DNA of 64,000 bases, taken from Actinoallomurus sp. GTDB lineage: Bacteria; Actinomycetota; Actinomycetes; Streptosporangiales; Streptosporangiaceae. The position numbers and the translations under genes were made by a program. The notes beneath the pieces are model-generated. The model made no database searches, had not been told where the DNA came from, and saw only the letters and a list, made by a program, of their open reading frames with translations. Every line of letters begins with the position of its first letter. Within the stretch, counting starts at the first letter, position 1. The stretch is taken from contig JAOPYG010000009.1 in the NCBI GenBank assembly GCA_025964685.1, forward strand, positions 1 through 64,000, read 5' to 3'. This document shows positions 48,676 through 58,616 of this stretch, piece by piece.

Positions 48676-49923
48676 ATGGCAGACTTGGGCTCGCCGAGCC
48701 AAGGAGCTTTCGTGAGCAGGGAAGCGTTCCGGACAGGCAGTACCTACGACAACGTCTACTTTCTGTTCCTCGATGCCTCCGGCTACTCCAGCATCGTGCG
48801 TCTCAACCCGCGGGACCGGGCGGCGCACGCCTTCGACCGGCTACGCGACCGGGTCGTCGCGCGGGTGACCCGGCTGGCCGAAGAGCACGGCTGCGCACGC
48901 GCGGTGCTGTGGAGCTGGCGTGGAGACGGCGGTTTCCTGGTCATCCACGACGACAACGAGAGCATCGCCCGTGACATCGCGCTGAAGGCGGCGCGGTACG
49001 TCCTGACCGTCGACCTTCCGGAGCTACGGGAGGAGCTCAGGCCGGCCGAGCTGCGAGGTGAGCTGCACATCCGGATGGCGGTGCACAAGGGCCCGATCCG
49101 GTACGCCGTCGAGAACGACACGGGCGCGATCCACTCACCCGACATCAACTTCGCCGCGCACCTGGAGGAGGTGACGCCCCGCGACTGCCTGGCCATCTCC
49201 GAGGACGTCCACCGCGTCGCGGGCGACTTCGCGGAGCTGTTCGAGCCCGTCGGCGTCTTCGAGGGCGAGAACATCTATTTGATGCGTCCGTGCGACGGGA
49301 CGAGCGACGGCAGGACAGCCTGGCTGAGAACGGCCGGGCTGGCGCGCCGGGTGCCGGTCCAGGCGTACGCCCAGCGGCCGAGCCAGCACGAGAAGGCTCG
49401 GCTCATCGACGCCGCCACCAGCGAGATCGTCGACCTGGGCACTGCCCTGAACACCTGTGCGGGCTATCTCGTCACGACCGAACGCCCGGCCATCTTCCGC
49501 GACGCCGTGCTGGAGTTCTTCCGGCGGGGCGGCATCTACCGTTGCGTGCTGCTGGACCCGGCCGGCGAGGCCGTCCAGATCTACTCCAGGCTTCGCCGGG
49601 AGGACCTCTCGGTGAAGATCAAGGGATCACTGGCGAAGTTCGCCCGGTTCAAGGAGCGCTTCGGCGCGGCGGCGGACGGGCTGCACGTCTACCAGACCGA
49701 TGAGTTCCCCGGAATGGCCGCGTTGTGCGTCGACCTCCGCTCGCCGCAGGCGCTGGTGTTGTACTCGCCGTACCTGCTCGGCACCCGCACGACCACGCCC
49801 GTCGTCGAGCGAGCCGACATGCCCCACTACCTGGCCGGCTCGGACTCCGGTCCGCTCTTCACCACCCTCACCGAGGTGATCGGAGACGCGATCAACGACG
49901 ACGTGGTGCACCGCGTCCTGTGA
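48676..49923 (+). CDS. Class III nucleotide cyclase-like protein with distinct C-terminal domain
   Basis: YFLFLDASGYSSIVR (metal Asp), WRGDGGFLVIHDD, SPDINFAAHLEEVTPRDCLAISEDVH; C-terminal FRRGGIYRCVLLDPAGEAVQIYSR. Confidence 0.65.
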   Translation: MADLGSPSQGAFVSREAFRTGSTYDNVYFLFLDASGYSSIVRLNPRDRAAHAFDRLRDRVVARVTRLAEEHGCARAVLWSWRGDGGFLVIHDDNESIARDIALKAARYVLTVDLPELREELRPAELRGELHIRMAVHKGPIRYAVENDTGAIHSPDINFAAHLEEVTPRDCLAISEDVHRVAGDFAELFEPVGVFEGENIYLMRPCDGTSDGRTAWLRTAGLARRVPVQAYAQRPSQHEKARLIDAATSEIVDLGTALNTCAGYLVTTERPAIFRDAVLEFFRRGGIYRCVLLDPAGEAVQIYSRLRREDLSVKIKGSLAKFARFKERFGAAADGLHVYQTDEFPGMAALCVDLRSPQALVLYSPYLLGTRTTTPVVERADMPHYLAGSDSGPLFTTLTEVIGDAINDDVVHRVL

Positions 49924-50860
49924 CCACCGCCAGATACGGCAGCAGTCGTTCCAGGACCGTGGCGGCGTTCTCGGCGGCGATCACATGGAAGGAGTCGTCC
50001 TTGACGATGTCCGCCTGGTCGGAGATCCCGCGGATGGACGACCAGCCCACCACGGGATTCTCGTCGCTCACCTGCTCATAGAACGCCTGAGCGATCCCGC
50101 CGGCCTCGGTCTCCAGCGCCAGCGTCTTGTCGTTGACGGTGCCGAGATAGTCGCGGATGGCGGAGTGGTCGTCGGCGACGACCGCGTCCCCCGAGCCGAT
50201 CGGCCCGGTGAGGACGGTGAACGGCCTCTCGCCGCCGGCCGGGTCTCGTCCGGTGAGACGCAGCGGGTACGGGTGGTCGGCCAAGAAGGCGTTGACGCAG
50301 CGCACGACCGCGGGGGGCACCTGGAGGTTCTGCCCCCGCCGCCGCACTCCGTGAGGCGTCTCCTTGCGCAGGTCGTAGTAGACGACCCCTTGGGCGATGA
50401 CGACGTCCCCGAGGGCGAGGTCGGCATGGATCCCGCCCGCGATGCCGACGAGGACGATGACCGCCGGGGCGTAGGTGTCGCGGATCCGCTGGAACGCCAC
50501 CGCGGCCGAACGCTGGCCCGGCTGGACGGCCTGGATCGCGACGACGCCGAGGTCCGCTTCGTCAATGGCGATCCGTGCCTCGTGGCAACGCCGGCCGTCG
50601 GGAAACGTCTCCTCGTGGTAGTCACCGTGGCGCCGGAGCATCGCCGTGACCGCCGCGGTCTCCTCACTGAGCGCGGTGATGACCCCTACGTCCCAGGATC
50701 CGGTCCTCCGCCGGGACGCGTCGTCCACCGAGTCCCGTTCGCCGGGCGGTGGCGTGGCCTGGACGTGCGCGTTCGGCCCGATCGCGGTGTTCCCCTGGAA
50801 ACTGATGCCACCGCTCCCATTGCTGATGACGCCATAGTTCTGTCGCGGCAGTTCATTCAT
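49892..50860 (-). CDS. PNP_UDP/MTAN-family nucleosidase with N-terminal amyloid-like motif
   Basis: VLVGIAGGIHADLALGDVVIAQGVVYYD; ALETEAGGIAQAFYE; IRGISDQAD; N-terminal NYGVISNGSGGISFQGNTAIGPNAHV. Confidence 0.85.
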   Translation of the reverse strand: MNELPRQNYGVISNGSGGISFQGNTAIGPNAHVQATPPPGERDSVDDASRRRTGSWDVGVITALSEETAAVTAMLRRHGDYHEETFPDGRRCHEARIAIDEADLGVVAIQAVQPGQRSAAVAFQRIRDTYAPAVIVLVGIAGGIHADLALGDVVIAQGVVYYDLRKETPHGVRRRGQNLQVPPAVVRCVNAFLADHPYPLRLTGRDPAGGERPFTVLTGPIGSGDAVVADDHSAIRDYLGTVNDKTLALETEAGGIAQAFYEQVSDENPVVGWSSIRGISDQADIVKDDSFHVIAAENAATVLERLLPYLAVVTGRGAPRRR

Positions 50861-50887
50861 CGACGGCCCTTTCGACGGCGGACATCG

Positions 50888-52396
50888 TCACGAGACGGTG
50901 GCGTTAGGGCCGACCGCGGTGGCGCCCTGGGTCACGATCCTGCCGCTGCCCGTCTGCAGAATCCCGTAGTTGAGAATGGACGTCTGCCGGGTGCGGTATT
51001 CACTCGAGTCGACGTTCTTCTGCTCGAGGAAGTCGAGGATTATCTCCAGCACGCGGCGTTCGACGATCTTCGCGTACTTCACCGCGTCGACGGACTGGAA
51101 GAAGTGATGGTAGCCGTCGATCGTGGCCATCTCGCGGATGCTCCGGCGGGCGCCGAAATCCGCGAGCCCACCGCTCGGCCCCGAGACCGCCGACCAGACG
51201 CCCTCGGCGTCGGCGGCGTCGGCGGCCACCTCCAGCCTCTCTTTCCGCTTCTTCGCCTGCCGGAAGAGGAGGAACGGGAACAAGACGACGGCCACGATGG
51301 CCTCACCGATCATCGAGGCGGACGACTCCAGAGCGATGCCGATCACCTTCGCCGGAGTTATCCGGTCCGGTAGCCGGTTGACCGTGTGATACGACGCCCG
51401 GATGGGGGGCAGGACGTAGGTGTGCAGTTCGCTGTACAACGTGCGGCCCCGGACGTCGAAGTTCACGAACAGGGAGTTGACGAGTTCCTGCTCCCACGCG
51501 CCGACACGGATGCAGAGATACTCCCGCGCCGAGTCGTAGGCCTCCTCCCCCTGCACGGCCGGGCGGGACAAGGGATCCGGCCACCACGGGCGCTCCCGCC
51601 CGACCGCGGTGCGGTACCACTTACGGGTCACCTCAAGGCCGCGGATCTGCCGTTCCACCGAAAGGTCGTCGCGGAGAGCGCCACGCAGACGATCCTGGAC
51701 GTAGCGCATCATCTCGTCACCGGTGAACTCCTCGGCCTCATCCTCGGAGTCCGCCGGGGGGGTCAGCAGGATCGGAAACGAGGATGACTTGACGAGAAAG
51801 CCCGCACCGACGAACGGCTTGAATCCGCTGTAGTAGACCACGCCGTTGCTGCTGTCCTGCTCGTTCGCGATACGGCGCACCACGCCGTCATTGAGCTGCC
51901 GATGACGGGGCGCGCCGATGTCGGCGTGGTCAGGGCCTTCGCGGCGGCCACCACCGTAGATCGTCAGAACCTGCAGTGTGAGGAGCTTCTCGAGGAAGAC
52001 CGCCGCCCAGACGACCCACAGCGCGATCAGGAACCCGATGACCGCTCCCTTGATTCCGAAGAAGGCCGACACCACGACGATCAGCGGGCTGAGCATGATC
52101 ACTGTCTGCTTGGCCTTCTGCCGGTCACGGGCGAGCAGAGCGTTCCCGAGGACCGGTACGGCGTCGAAGCCGTACGAGGGCGCGACGAACCGGTGGCCCT
52201 CACCGAGCAGTTCCGCGATGACGGCGTCGGCATAGGACGAGTCCAGGTGCGTCCCGGCGCAGAGGAGACGGGTGACGATCCCCGTGTCCCGCCGTGCGGT
52301 CGACGCGGAGCCGTCGTCGACGGACGGCCCTGCCGCGGTGGTGCCCGCTGACGTGCCTTCACCCATGGCGGTTCGCCCTCTCGGTTCGGCGGTCAC
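50888..52396 (-). CDS. Multi-TM membrane protein with C-terminal amyloid-like motif
   Basis: TM segments LSPLIVVVSAFFGIKGAVIGFLIALWVVWAAVFL and GEAIVAVVLFPFLLF; C-terminal NYGILQTGSGRIVTQGATAVGPNATVS. Confidence 0.75.
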   Translation of the reverse strand: MTAEPRGRTAMGEGTSAGTTAAGPSVDDGSASTARRDTGIVTRLLCAGTHLDSSYADAVIAELLGEGHRFVAPSYGFDAVPVLGNALLARDRQKAKQTVIMLSPLIVVVSAFFGIKGAVIGFLIALWVVWAAVFLEKLLTLQVLTIYGGGRREGPDHADIGAPRHRQLNDGVVRRIANEQDSSNGVVYYSGFKPFVGAGFLVKSSSFPILLTPPADSEDEAEEFTGDEMMRYVQDRLRGALRDDLSVERQIRGLEVTRKWYRTAVGRERPWWPDPLSRPAVQGEEAYDSAREYLCIRVGAWEQELVNSLFVNFDVRGRTLYSELHTYVLPPIRASYHTVNRLPDRITPAKVIGIALESSASMIGEAIVAVVLFPFLLFRQAKKRKERLEVAADAADAEGVWSAVSGPSGGLADFGARRSIREMATIDGYHHFFQSVDAVKYAKIVERRVLEIILDFLEQKNVDSSEYRTRQTSILNYGILQTGSGRIVTQGATAVGPNATVS

Positions 52397-53163
52397 AGCT
52401 TTGACGCCTTCCTGTGCGGAAGGCCGTAGGTGTCGGCGATGGTGTTCCAGGCGGTTGCGAGCTGTTTCTTCTCCTCGCCCGCCTGGTCGCTGAGGCTGAT
52501 GCCGTTCTGGGCGTGCTCGTCAGAGGATTCCGAACCGGCGAAACAGGATCCGCTGACATCACTTCCCCAGGCCGAGAATTCCTGGTCGGCCTGGGCCGAG
52601 TCGCGCAGGGCGGCGGCGAACAGCCGGACCACTTCGTCGCCACCGCTCACCTGGCTCACGTCCTGTCGCTCGGCCTGGTCGGCCAGGTCGGATCGGCTCT
52701 GTGCCGCCTGATCGAGCTGGGTGACGGCATCGTCCAGCGAAGCGTCGCAATTCTGAATATGGACGACCGCCGCCGACACCAGCGTCCGATCCTGCTCCGC
52801 CTGGTCGAACAGGCCGTCCAGCGCCGCCGCCTCGGACGCGCCGGTCTCGGGGGGAACGGACGGGGTCGCCGTCGGACTCGGCGAAGGCGTCGGAGTGGCA
52901 GTGGGCGAGCGGGTGGGCGGCGCGGCGACTTCGCCTTTTCCGGGAAAACCGCCGTACGGGCTGTACATGGAGAAAGGGTTGTGCGGCATGACGATGACGA
53001 TGCCGAGGAGGAGAACGACGAGCGCCGACACCTGCAGAAGACATATCACCAGCGAGCGAACGTCTTCCTGGAGAGAGAAGAACAGCGACAACAAGTAGTG
53101 ACGGGTCGTCGGCTGATCGGGCTCACCTGGACCTCCAGCACGATGGACACCTTCACCGCTCAT
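52393..53163 (-). CDS. Single-TM protein with Pro/Thr-rich linker and Cys-containing domain
   Basis: TM VICLLQVSALVVLLLGIVIVM; linker PPTRSPTATPTPSPSPTATPSVPPE; GTGA overlap with next gene. Confidence 0.75.
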   Translation of the reverse strand: MSGEGVHRAGGPGEPDQPTTRHYLLSLFFSLQEDVRSLVICLLQVSALVVLLLGIVIVMPHNPFSMYSPYGGFPGKGEVAAPPTRSPTATPTPSPSPTATPSVPPETGASEAAALDGLFDQAEQDRTLVSAAVVHIQNCDASLDDAVTQLDQAAQSRSDLADQAERQDVSQVSGGDEVVRLFAAALRDSAQADQEFSAWGSDVSGSCFAGSESSDEHAQNGISLSDQAGEEKKQLATAWNTIADTYGLPHRKASKL

Positions 53164-53311
53164 CGAACCCGCCCTTCACCACCGAAATGATCTTCAGTTT
53201 GCCGAGACCATCAGTGTGACGCGCACGGAACCTCCCTGGATCACGTCGATTGATCACAAAATGCAAACGACGCTCGGCGGCGCTACAACAGAGGAATTCC
53301 GCCGCAGATAC

Positions 53312-53886
53312 CTATTTCACACATTTGTCCGATTCACTCGGGGGCATGTCCTGTCTCAGGTCGGCGTACAGGACGATCTGTGCGACGAGAAAGACGATGG
53401 CCGCCATCTCGGCGACGGACACGACGACGAGCCCGGCCGAGGTTCGTCCGGTCGCCCGGAAGCCGACGATCGCCGTCAGTGGCGAGCCACAGAAGGTCAG
53501 CAGGTCCACCCGACCTGGAGGAACTTGCGCGGGGAGCGGCGAGCATCGCTGCGGTGGATGGTCTCCCAGCCGAAGATCACCGAGTCGTCGCCGGTCTGTG
53601 CCGCGAGCCGGGGAGCCAGTTCGCCGCGGATATAGCGACCGATCGCGGAGATCTTCTCGTCGTTCGCCAGATAGGTCCAGCCCAAAATCCGGGATACGGG
53701 CGGAAGGAGCAACACATAGGAAGGATCACGGGCGGAGGCAGAAACGGCGATCACCGTAGCCATTGCCGCGAGCGTTACATAGAGCAGATTGTCGCGGAAA
53801 CCAATTCGGGTGCGCTGTTCGTCTTTGATGCGTTCGTATTCCAGGACCATCAGCCGAGCACTGGTCACCTCGTCATCACGCGTCAC
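53312..53886 (-). pseudogene. Frameshifted multi-TM membrane protein
   Basis: TSARLMVLEYERIKDEQRTRIGFRDNLLYVTLAAMATVIAVSASAR...RKFLQVG in one frame, VDLLTFCGSPLTAIVGFRATG...AAIVFLVAQIVLYADL in the next. Confidence 0.6.
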
Positions 53887-56236: not shown

Positions 56237-57076
56237 ATGACATCGGACGCCACGACTCCCGCAGTGGTTCACGTCGTCGCGCCCTCCGGAGACGTTACGG
56301 AGATCTTCGAGTACGAGCAGGTGGTGTTCGGGCGTGGGGCGGAGGCCGATCTGGTGATCTCCGCCGACCGGGGGCTGTCGCGCCGGGCGGGGGTGATCAG
56401 TGCGGTCCGCGGCGGCGCGTGGGTGGGGAACCTCAGTCATACACACGCGCTCTACGCGGAGTGCGACGGGTACCAGATCCGGCTGCCGCCCATGGAGGCT
56501 CCGGGCGATCCCGCCGGAGGATGGTTCATGCGGACCGGCACCACGCTGGTGGGTTCGCGGGCGATGCTGGACGACGGTCAGCCGTTGCGCGTGACCGTAC
56601 TGCCCGCCACGGGTGCGGGGACCGGTGCCGGCGGGGAGCGGCCGTCGGGCGTACGGCCGGACGACGATTCGACGCTGCTTCCGCTGTACCTCGACCCGAA
56701 CACCAAGCTGTTCCTGGTCGCGCTGCTGTGGTGCCGGCCGTGGCTGGTCGACCCCACGCGTACGACCCCGCTACCGCGGATCCCGGAGATCGCGCGTGCC
56801 GCGCTGGAGGTCACGGACGCGCATCACCAGATCGAGCAGTTCGACAACGACCCGCTGTTCCGCGACCGGCTGGCCGCGCGCGTCGGGGAGCACGTCAAGG
56901 TGTTGCGGCGAAAGATCAACATCCGGGGGCTGGTGCGCGACGGCACCCGGCTGTCGGACGAGGTGGTGGTCGGGGTGCTCATCGAGCACGCGATCATCAC
57001 GTTCACCGACCTGGGCCGGCTGAGTGACCCGTCATGGTGTTCGCGACAGGAGGATCTCTGGTGGGACCGTACGTGA
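56237..57076 (+). CDS. FHA-like domain protein
   Basis: YEQVVFGRGAEADLVISADRGLSRRAGVISAVRGGAWVGNLSHTHALYAE; 279 aa; convergent with STPK. Confidence 0.65.
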   Translation: MTSDATTPAVVHVVAPSGDVTEIFEYEQVVFGRGAEADLVISADRGLSRRAGVISAVRGGAWVGNLSHTHALYAECDGYQIRLPPMEAPGDPAGGWFMRTGTTLVGSRAMLDDGQPLRVTVLPATGAGTGAGGERPSGVRPDDDSTLLPLYLDPNTKLFLVALLWCRPWLVDPTRTTPLPRIPEIARAALEVTDAHHQIEQFDNDPLFRDRLAARVGEHVKVLRRKINIRGLVRDGTRLSDEVVVGVLIEHAIITFTDLGRLSDPSWCSRQEDLWWDRT

Positions 57077-57104
57077 GAAGGCGCGGCGTCTCGTGGAACC
57101 TCGG

Positions 57105-58616
57105 TCAGTGCGTGTTGACGGTGAAGGCCAGTTTCGTCTGACGGCCCCCGGACACGGTCACCGTTACCTGATGGGACCCCGGCGGGATCTTCCCGGCGAA
57201 GAACTCATGGCCCTGGTTGATGACATAGCTGAACACTCCCCCGAAGTCGACCACGGGCGTGAACGGCGACACCGGTCCACGGTCGACCTGGATGGTGACC
57301 TTCCGCCCAGGTGTCAAGCCCGCACCGTGGACGGTGAACCCGGTGTTCCCGTCGCCGAAGTTCTGGCTCAGGGCGATGCTCGAGCTCCCCGACACGCGAG
57401 GCGGGCCGTTGTTCCCCGGGGGGAAGTCAGCGGGAGGCGGCCCCGGCGGCCGGTTCGGGTCACCGGACGTCCTCCCCAGTGCCATGCCGAGAAGCAGTGC
57501 CCCGGCCATCACGGCTAACGCCACGGCGGAGATCAGAATGATGCGCGTGGACCCGCCGTGACGCGGGGGCGTACGGGGCGGTGCCGCCGGTGCGGGCGGC
57601 CGGCGGGGCAGGTTCGGTGGCCGGGAGGGTGCCCCCAAGGACGTCGGGGAGTCCAGCGTCGGATCGGCGACGCCGCCCTCGCCGGCGCGCACCGGCGTGG
57701 ACGGCCGCTTGCCCTGCCGGTACTGCTCGATCAGGTCGACCGCGTCGGCGGGCAGCGGTGCCGGGCGCAGCTCGTAGTCGCCGTCCTCGTCCAGCTGCTC
57801 GGCCAGGCCGGCCAGCAGGGCAGCGGCGGTGGGCCGGGCGTCGGGGTCACGCTGAAGGCATTCGCGGACCAGGTCGGCCACCTCGTCGGGCACACCGGTC
57901 AGATCCGGTTCCTCGGTCGCCAGCCGGACCAGGACGTCGGTGACCGAGTCCCCGGAGTACGGCGGGTGGCCGGTGGCGGCGTACAGCAGGGTCGAACCGA
58001 GTGAGAAGACATCGCTCGCCGCCACGGTCTGCCGGCTGTCGCGTGCCTGCTCGGGCGCCATGTACGCGGGGGTGCCGACGGCCTGGTGCGTCGCGGTGAC
58101 CGTGCTGCGCTCGGTCGCCCGCGCCACCCCGAAGTCGATCACCCGTGGGCCGTCGGCGGAGACCAGGACGTTGGACGGCTTGAGGTCGCGGTGCACCAGT
58201 CCGGCCTGGTGGATCGACTCCAGCGCCTCGGCGCAACCGGCGGCCAGCCAGCGCAGGGCCTCGACCGGCAGCGGCCCACAGGCCCGCACCAGCTGCTCGA
58301 GTGAGGGCGCCGGAATGTAGGCGGTGGCCAGCCACGGGATCTCGGCGTCCGGGTCGGCGGCGACGACCGCGGCGGTGTAGACCCCGCTCACCCGGCCGGC
58401 GGCCGTCACCTCATGGGCGAACCGGGTACGGAAGTCACCGTCGGCGGCGAACTCGCTTCTGATCGTCTTGACCGCCACCAGCCGGCCCGACGCCGACCTT
58501 CCCAGGTAGACCCGGCCCATCGCACCGGTGCCCAGCCGCGCCAGGAGCAGGTAGCCGCCGACACGTAGGGGGTCCTGCTGAGACAGTGGCTCGAGTCCCG
58601 CGTCCCCTGACCCCAT
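57105..58616 (-). CDS. Membrane serine/threonine protein kinase
   Basis: YLLLARLGTGAMGRVYLGRSASGRLVAVK; LVHRDLKPSNVLVSADGPRVIDFGVA; GTPAYMAPEQ; TM followed by extracellular domain. Confidence 0.94.
   Translation of the reverse strand: MGSGDAGLEPLSQQDPLRVGGYLLLARLGTGAMGRVYLGRSASGRLVAVKTIRSEFAADGDFRTRFAHEVTAAGRVSGVYTAAVVAADPDAEIPWLATAYIPAPSLEQLVRACGPLPVEALRWLAAGCAEALESIHQAGLVHRDLKPSNVLVSADGPRVIDFGVARATERSTVTATHQAVGTPAYMAPEQARDSRQTVAASDVFSLGSTLLYAATGHPPYSGDSVTDVLVRLATEEPDLTGVPDEVADLVRECLQRDPDARPTAAALLAGLAEQLDEDGDYELRPAPLPADAVDLIEQYRQGKRPSTPVRAGEGGVADPTLDSPTSLGAPSRPPNLPRRPPAPAAPPRTPPRHGGSTRIILISAVALAVMAGALLLGMALGRTSGDPNRPPGPPPADFPPGNNGPPRVSGSSSIALSQNFGDGNTGFTVHGAGLTPGRKVTIQVDRGPVSPFTPVVDFGGVFSYVINQGHEFFAGKIPPGSHQVTVTVSGGRQTKLAFTVNTH

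Follow-up and report, generated by a model that had tools for sequence, protein, structure and literature searches.

Four genes on the minus strand of the window (the whole stretch of 64,000 nucleotides of Actinoallomurus DNA that was analysed) lie between positions 49892 and 53886, in the transcriptional order FRS, STM, MEM and PNP. FRS (53312–53886) encodes a small multi-transmembrane protein and is frame-shifted; the first frame stops at 53497, with the remainder continuing in another frame down to 53312. This may be a sequencing error, since the source genome (7.6 Mb) is a draft in 502 contigs with a completeness of 88%. STM (52393–53163) has one hydrophobic segment, a Pro/Thr linker and a C-terminal helical domain with two cysteines. 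MEM (50888–52396), a membrane protein of 502 amino acids with a C-terminal motif, begins with GTG and overlaps the STM stop codon by GTGA. After a gap of 27 bases it is followed by PNP (49892–50860), a 322-residue nucleosidase of the PNP/MTAN superfamily with a motif at its N-terminus, which is the proposed effector. Hence, the gene arrangement described in the initial annotation was borne out: a frame-shifted multi-transmembrane gene, a single-transmembrane protein with a Pro/Thr linker, a GTGA-coupled membrane protein and a nucleosidase. A cyclase-like or DUF5919-like protein is encoded convergently on the plus strand (48676–49923), and the 3' end of its gene overlaps the end of PNP by 32 bases; it was judged to be outside the module. 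Elsewhere in the window (56264–58616), reading of the sequence alone indicated an FHA-type protein, convergent with a Ser/Thr kinase with a Pro-rich tail.

PNP matched PF01048 (Pfam, 3.2e-18) and the PADLOC model 'Effector, PN-superfamily' (8.7e-23), and LETEAGGIAQ and GISDQAD were both present, in line with the previous claim of intact LETEAGGIAQ and SDQAD motifs. Residues E67, E252 and D281 were invariant across 16 diverse relatives; alignment with solved MTA/SAH nucleosidases identified them as the equivalents of the catalytic Glu, Glu and Asp of MTAN. The nearest solved structures were likewise housekeeping MTA/SAH nucleosidases. This resemblance favours an alternative in which MEM would be a constitutive scaffold, tethering PNP to the membrane by way of a matched peptide for a metabolic or developmental job (nucleotide salvage, or homeostasis related to NAD and controlled by the NrtR-like gene), and would play no part in death or immunity. 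However, PNP scored far below the equivalog cut-offs for such enzymes (NF004079, 66.4 vs 169 bits; TIGR01704, 38.9 vs 73.8 bits), and a search of the whole genome agreed. PNP immune effectors degrade (d)ATP (reviewed in PMC10952713, citing Rousset 2023), and this knowledge of the family suggests that PNP would act through nucleotide depletion. A Streptomyces PNP of 448 amino acids at locus L158 (6422–7768, plus strand) possessed an extra N-terminal domain ahead of a motif-like stretch, VNIGNNSGIVQNDSVGD; it adjoined a divergent, intact FRS relative and no MEM, and is perhaps a one-protein version.

MEM, STM and FRS had no match in Pfam or PADLOC and no meaningful one in NCBIfam, and a PADLOC scan of 44 MEM relatives likewise matched no family. 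MEM was predicted to have a transmembrane hairpin near residues 95–144 and a cytosolic alpha/beta domain at approximately 165–345. The AlphaFold model (pLDDT 73.6) comprised the hairpin, the alpha/beta domain and long helices, with the C-terminal motif modelled at low confidence (disordered), and was consistent with a tail on the cytosolic side. A PDB search for the fold of MEM returned nothing at E < 0.001; tentatively, the cytosolic domain resembles the DcrB, EagR and PsbP folds (probability up to 0.97, E = 0.01–0.2). MEM is not an obvious envelope sensor, because it has little extracytoplasmic sequence. As a lone query against genome contigs, MEM returned zero relatives.

A motif of approximately 26 residues was common to the last 26 residues of MEM, which ends in NYGILQTGSGRIVTQGATAVGPNATVS, and residues 8–33 of PNP. 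In the alignment of the two, the MEM side comprised residues 476–501 (NYGILQTGSGRIVTQGATAVGPNATV; 50894–50971, minus strand) and the PNP side NYGVISNGSGGISFQGNTAIGPNAHV (50762–50839, minus strand). The pair scored 84, where the maximum among 5,000 shuffles was 48. When PNP was used as a query against the whole 7.6 Mb genome, the MEM tail was the only match at E ≤ 0.01 besides PNP itself (E = 4.6e-4).

Relatives of MEM were identified by tblastn in 80 of 201 genomes from the same family, and PNPs of this type in 35 of the 201; such a patchy distribution argues against a constitutive scaffold. Among the family loci that were fetched, 29 of 32 called PNPs directly adjoined a MEM; in L093 and L107, MEM was left uncalled by the gene caller, yet tblastn placed it beside PNP, which leaves L123. 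The alignment of diverse MEM sequences was too divergent for a pattern search, and the PNP alignment was used to scan named genomes. This produced 79 loci from Streptomyces, Actinomadura, Nocardiopsis, Nonomuraea, Micromonospora, Actinoplanes, Lentzea and others, a set that overlaps with the family set in some genomes. MEM was found within two genes of PNP for 72 of 77 called PNPs in these named actinomycetes, one of the 72 coming from a Streptomyces linear plasmid record (L148); the other five had no called MEM, some owing to broken genes. In most loci MEM was upstream of PNP, with an overlap or a short gap. The pairing of MEM and PNP is real and near-obligate, and the core of the locus is a two-gene module; the survey upheld the earlier proposal that PNP belongs with a membrane protein bearing the motif in a single conserved unit. 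Having a dedicated partner gene also distinguishes PNP from a housekeeping MTA/SAH nucleosidase. In L148 (Streptomyces sp. AD2-2 linear plasmid CP106748), MEM was split into three reading frames and the adjoining PNP was intact. The gene order in L149 was FRS-PNP-MEM, rather than MEM-PNP.

The motifs of neighbouring genes matched each other specifically. Across 55 pairs, the mean fit of a motif to that of its own neighbour was 68.7, against 35.0 ± 1.9 for permuted pairs; for 34 non-redundant pairs with dissimilar MEM bodies, the values were 65.9 and 34.0 ± 2.2. A further 71 PNP pairs, from genomes partly shared with the first set, had a mean of 76.7 (permuted, 51.0 ± 1.4), and 20 non-redundant PNP pairs gave 66.3 (permuted, 41.7 ± 2.6). 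None of 20,000 permutations reached the observed pairing value. These tests confirmed the shared motif as the conserved link between the membrane protein and PNP. At identical motif residues, codon agreement was 0.625, compared with 0.614 from codon usage (86 pairs; 8 of 16 in the window). Since codons matched at the rate of codon usage, the likeness is kept at the protein level and not mainly through copying of DNA, which was rejected overall as its cause. The exceptions were L196 and L211, where the motifs look recently copied.

At approximately half of MEM loci, the place of PNP was taken by a protein of approximately 115 residues with a matching N-terminal motif. DUF5955 was above the cut-off in two of the three such partners scanned; the family has 15 DUF5955 genes that pass the cut-off, and by position approximately 13 of them adjoined a MEM. 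In a tree of 70 MEM bodies with the tail removed, the PNP label had to change four times or more on well-supported branches. The window (PNP) grouped with L072 (DUF5955), from a sister of the same genus, with support of 100/100, and the partners differed; similarly, L074 (PNP) grouped with L075 (DUF5955-like; 100/99), and L086 (PNP) with L038 (DUF5955-like; 100/100). The motif can therefore be viewed as a plug that permits partner exchange, because one MEM scaffold serves a DUF5955-type partner in other genomes. Exchange with an unrelated DUF5955 protein, together with fast-diverging, locus-specific motifs, is unlike a metabolic enzyme and counts further against constitutive tethering. The same evidence bears on another alternative, that MEM is a sequestering inhibitor; in this case the motif pair would keep PNP inactive at the membrane until damage freed it, in the manner of a toxin-antitoxin system. 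Tight pairing is equally compatible with inhibition, as is the usual position of MEM upstream, yet the same MEM tail serves DUF5955 partners too, and short Gly/Asn-rich motifs on both partners resemble the activating BASS/HET-s pairs (PMC7889193); we consider inhibition improbable.

STM was found near 15 of 28 DUF5955-type MEM loci, as against 1 of 25 PNP-type loci, the single case being the window. By this distribution, the window resembles a locus of the DUF5955 type whose executioner has been replaced by PNP. STM is an accessory typical of DUF5955-type MEM loci, so that its original inclusion in the locus was right for that locus type, though not for PNP-type loci generally. STM relatives from the DUF5955-type loci L045, L048, L050, L081 and L089 had an N-terminal, zinc-ribbon-like CxxC segment (MQCPRCGENTP is one example) and were connected to the transmembrane segment by a long linker rich in Pro; some loci had two STM relatives in tandem.

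The remaining genes of the window were less consistent companions. Intact FRS relatives of 173–227 amino acids exist, and they recurred at about four other PNP loci (L074/L149, L106, L122 and L158); the frame-shifted gene, counted in the locus originally, thus recurs at few PNP loci and is broken here. The cyclase-like gene had no significant match, DUF5919 being under the cut-off (Pfam, E = 0.013) and 3mr7 the PDB hit (E = 0.077). No relatives of it were present in 200 family genomes or in about 150 related loci, and this orphan, cast previously as a possible supplier of a signal, was ruled out as part of the module. Comparison of profiles rejected a relationship between its C-terminal domain and the third gene of PNP-type loci described below (probability 0.1%), or the DUF5919-type gene of L151. 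Transmembrane proteins adjoined PNP in L152 (7747–8523, minus strand) and L151 (1232–2143, plus strand), the latter with a DUF5919 domain (3.5e-6); direct similarity between these two proteins and the cyclase-like gene of the window was sought and not found. A model in which FRS, STM and the cyclase-like gene are all required along with MEM and PNP, the cyclase giving the signal, draws on the contiguity of the five genes in the window; given the rarity of the first two at PNP loci and the absence of the third from the family genomes, it is largely refuted by the survey and we hold it to be very improbable.

Other neighbours recurred among PNP loci. A gene combining NUDIX and NrtR winged-helix domains was present in 56 of 77 PNP loci, usually in divergent orientation. 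NrtR proteins regulate NAD homeostasis (PMC6800001), and this neighbour fits a nucleotide-related substrate for PNP; its presence at most PNP loci also lends some support to a constitutive scaffold under NrtR-like control. Among these regulators (L096–L121 and L153–L226) the Nudix box often looked complete, so hydrolase activity may accompany their regulatory role. In approximately 35 loci (e.g., L156, L176, L185 and L213), a third gene encoding approximately 220 amino acids was situated directly 3' of PNP; its product has a hydrophobic segment at the N-terminus and, after it, a soluble domain ('GRGN..TRDTFAPVW', 'HGRNSPC') that belongs to no Pfam family, and the gene is probably a further part of PNP-type loci. 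Neither DtcA/DtcB nor CD-NTase companions were found among the scanned neighbours of the window; the recurrent partners of PNP were MEM, NUDIX and a small transmembrane protein.

Defence-island enrichment, a check attached to the initial annotation, was not seen. PADLOC analysis of 120 flanking and 120 control proteins showed no difference in favour of the flanks, in what was a weak test since the control chanced on CRISPR loci. The phages and viral contigs searched contained no copies or relatives of the module. The lack of a defence-island signal is a further point for constitutive tethering which, set against the distribution, exchange and divergence described above, nonetheless seems unlikely. 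Phage defence by MEM and PNP is plausible as a hypothesis, although neither of these searches supported it.

Several known systems resemble the pair in part. Like the BASS NLR/Bell pairs (Dyrka et al. 2020, reviewed in PMC7889193), MEM and PNP are encoded by adjacent genes in actinomycetes, combine a receptor-like with an effector-like protein, and share a short, family-specific, Gly/Asn-rich motif. The BASS receptor is an NLR/STAND protein, however, whereas MEM is a membrane protein outside all Pfam, NCBIfam and PADLOC families. The BASS effector carries its motif at the C-terminus of a Bell domain (the effectors named in the review being Bell, CHAT and TIR; PMC7889193), while here a PNP or DUF5955-type protein carries it at the N-terminus; the polarity is reversed, with the motif on the C-terminus of the receptor. 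Having no NLR, no Bell effector and the opposite polarity, MEM/PNP is not a member of BASS as defined. Fungal PNP_UDP effectors with the amyloid motifs PUASM and HRAM are known (PMC9815663) and similarly join a PNP_UDP domain to an amyloid-type motif that is also present in a protein encoded nearby; they differ in the fungal host, the NLR receptor and the C-terminal location of the motif on PNP (PMC9815663). The PNP effectors of Detocs and CBASS (Cap17; tabulated in PMC10952713) share the PF01048 domain with the window PNP, in which the catalytic residues are intact, but they have other sensors, whereas the PNP of the window has an amyloid-like tag and is paired with a membrane protein. EAD/EACC1 systems (Kaur et al. 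2020, PMC7159879) also have matching small modules on adjacent genes, a membrane component and variable effectors, and MEM/PNP motifs, like EADs, were more alike between adjacent copies than between other copies in the permutation tests. EADs, however, are small domains, mostly alpha-helical, and EACC1 has one transmembrane helix and a caspase-type 3' gene (PMC7159879), while MEM is larger, with a transmembrane hairpin and a short motif. The combination of MEM and PNP was not described in the literature searched, which excluded subscription-only work and supplements. It is best filed as a variant of amyloid-type signalosomes, without an NLR and with a PNP effector, that would work like a BASS signalosome.

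In BASS, as in the fungal systems, amyloid is templated by short motifs that occur in pairs (PMC7889193, PMC9815663). Because of this, and because PNP effectors degrade (d)ATP, MEM is interpreted as a platform and PNP as the executioner clustered upon it. The module is probably membrane-anchored, MEM recruiting or clustering PNP through the amyloid-like motif and so switching it on. MEM would be held in the membrane by its N-terminal hairpin, with the large domain and the C-terminal motif predicted to be cytosolic. On a trigger, the tail may change state or cluster, and would then capture the matching N-terminal motif of PNP by homotypic, amyloid-like templating. Clustering would activate PNP, which would cleave a purine nucleotide or nucleoside (by analogy, most likely ATP or dATP) at its N-glycosidic bond, leading to growth arrest or cell death. 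Elsewhere, the same scaffold would drive the other executioner, the DUF5955-type protein of approximately 115 residues. A broader reading has slightly better than even chances in our estimation: that this is a widespread, NLR-free actinomycete signalosome, with a family-less membrane scaffold, a C-terminal amyloid-type plug and interchangeable executioners (PNP or DUF5955), using a private code at each locus against cross-talk.

If this is true, amyloid-templated death or immune signalling is not confined to NLR receptors but extends to a scaffold anchored in the membrane, and the fungal PNP_UDP amyloid effectors have a bacterial counterpart. MEM and DUF5955 gain their first functional hypothesis. 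Natural motif pairs, cognate and non-cognate alike, are available by the dozen and come with repeated partner exchange, so that the specificity of amyloid signalling becomes directly testable. Soil actinobacteria carry the match between MEM tail and PNP head repeatedly, and it looks like a built-in switch that would gather and activate a cell-stopping enzyme.
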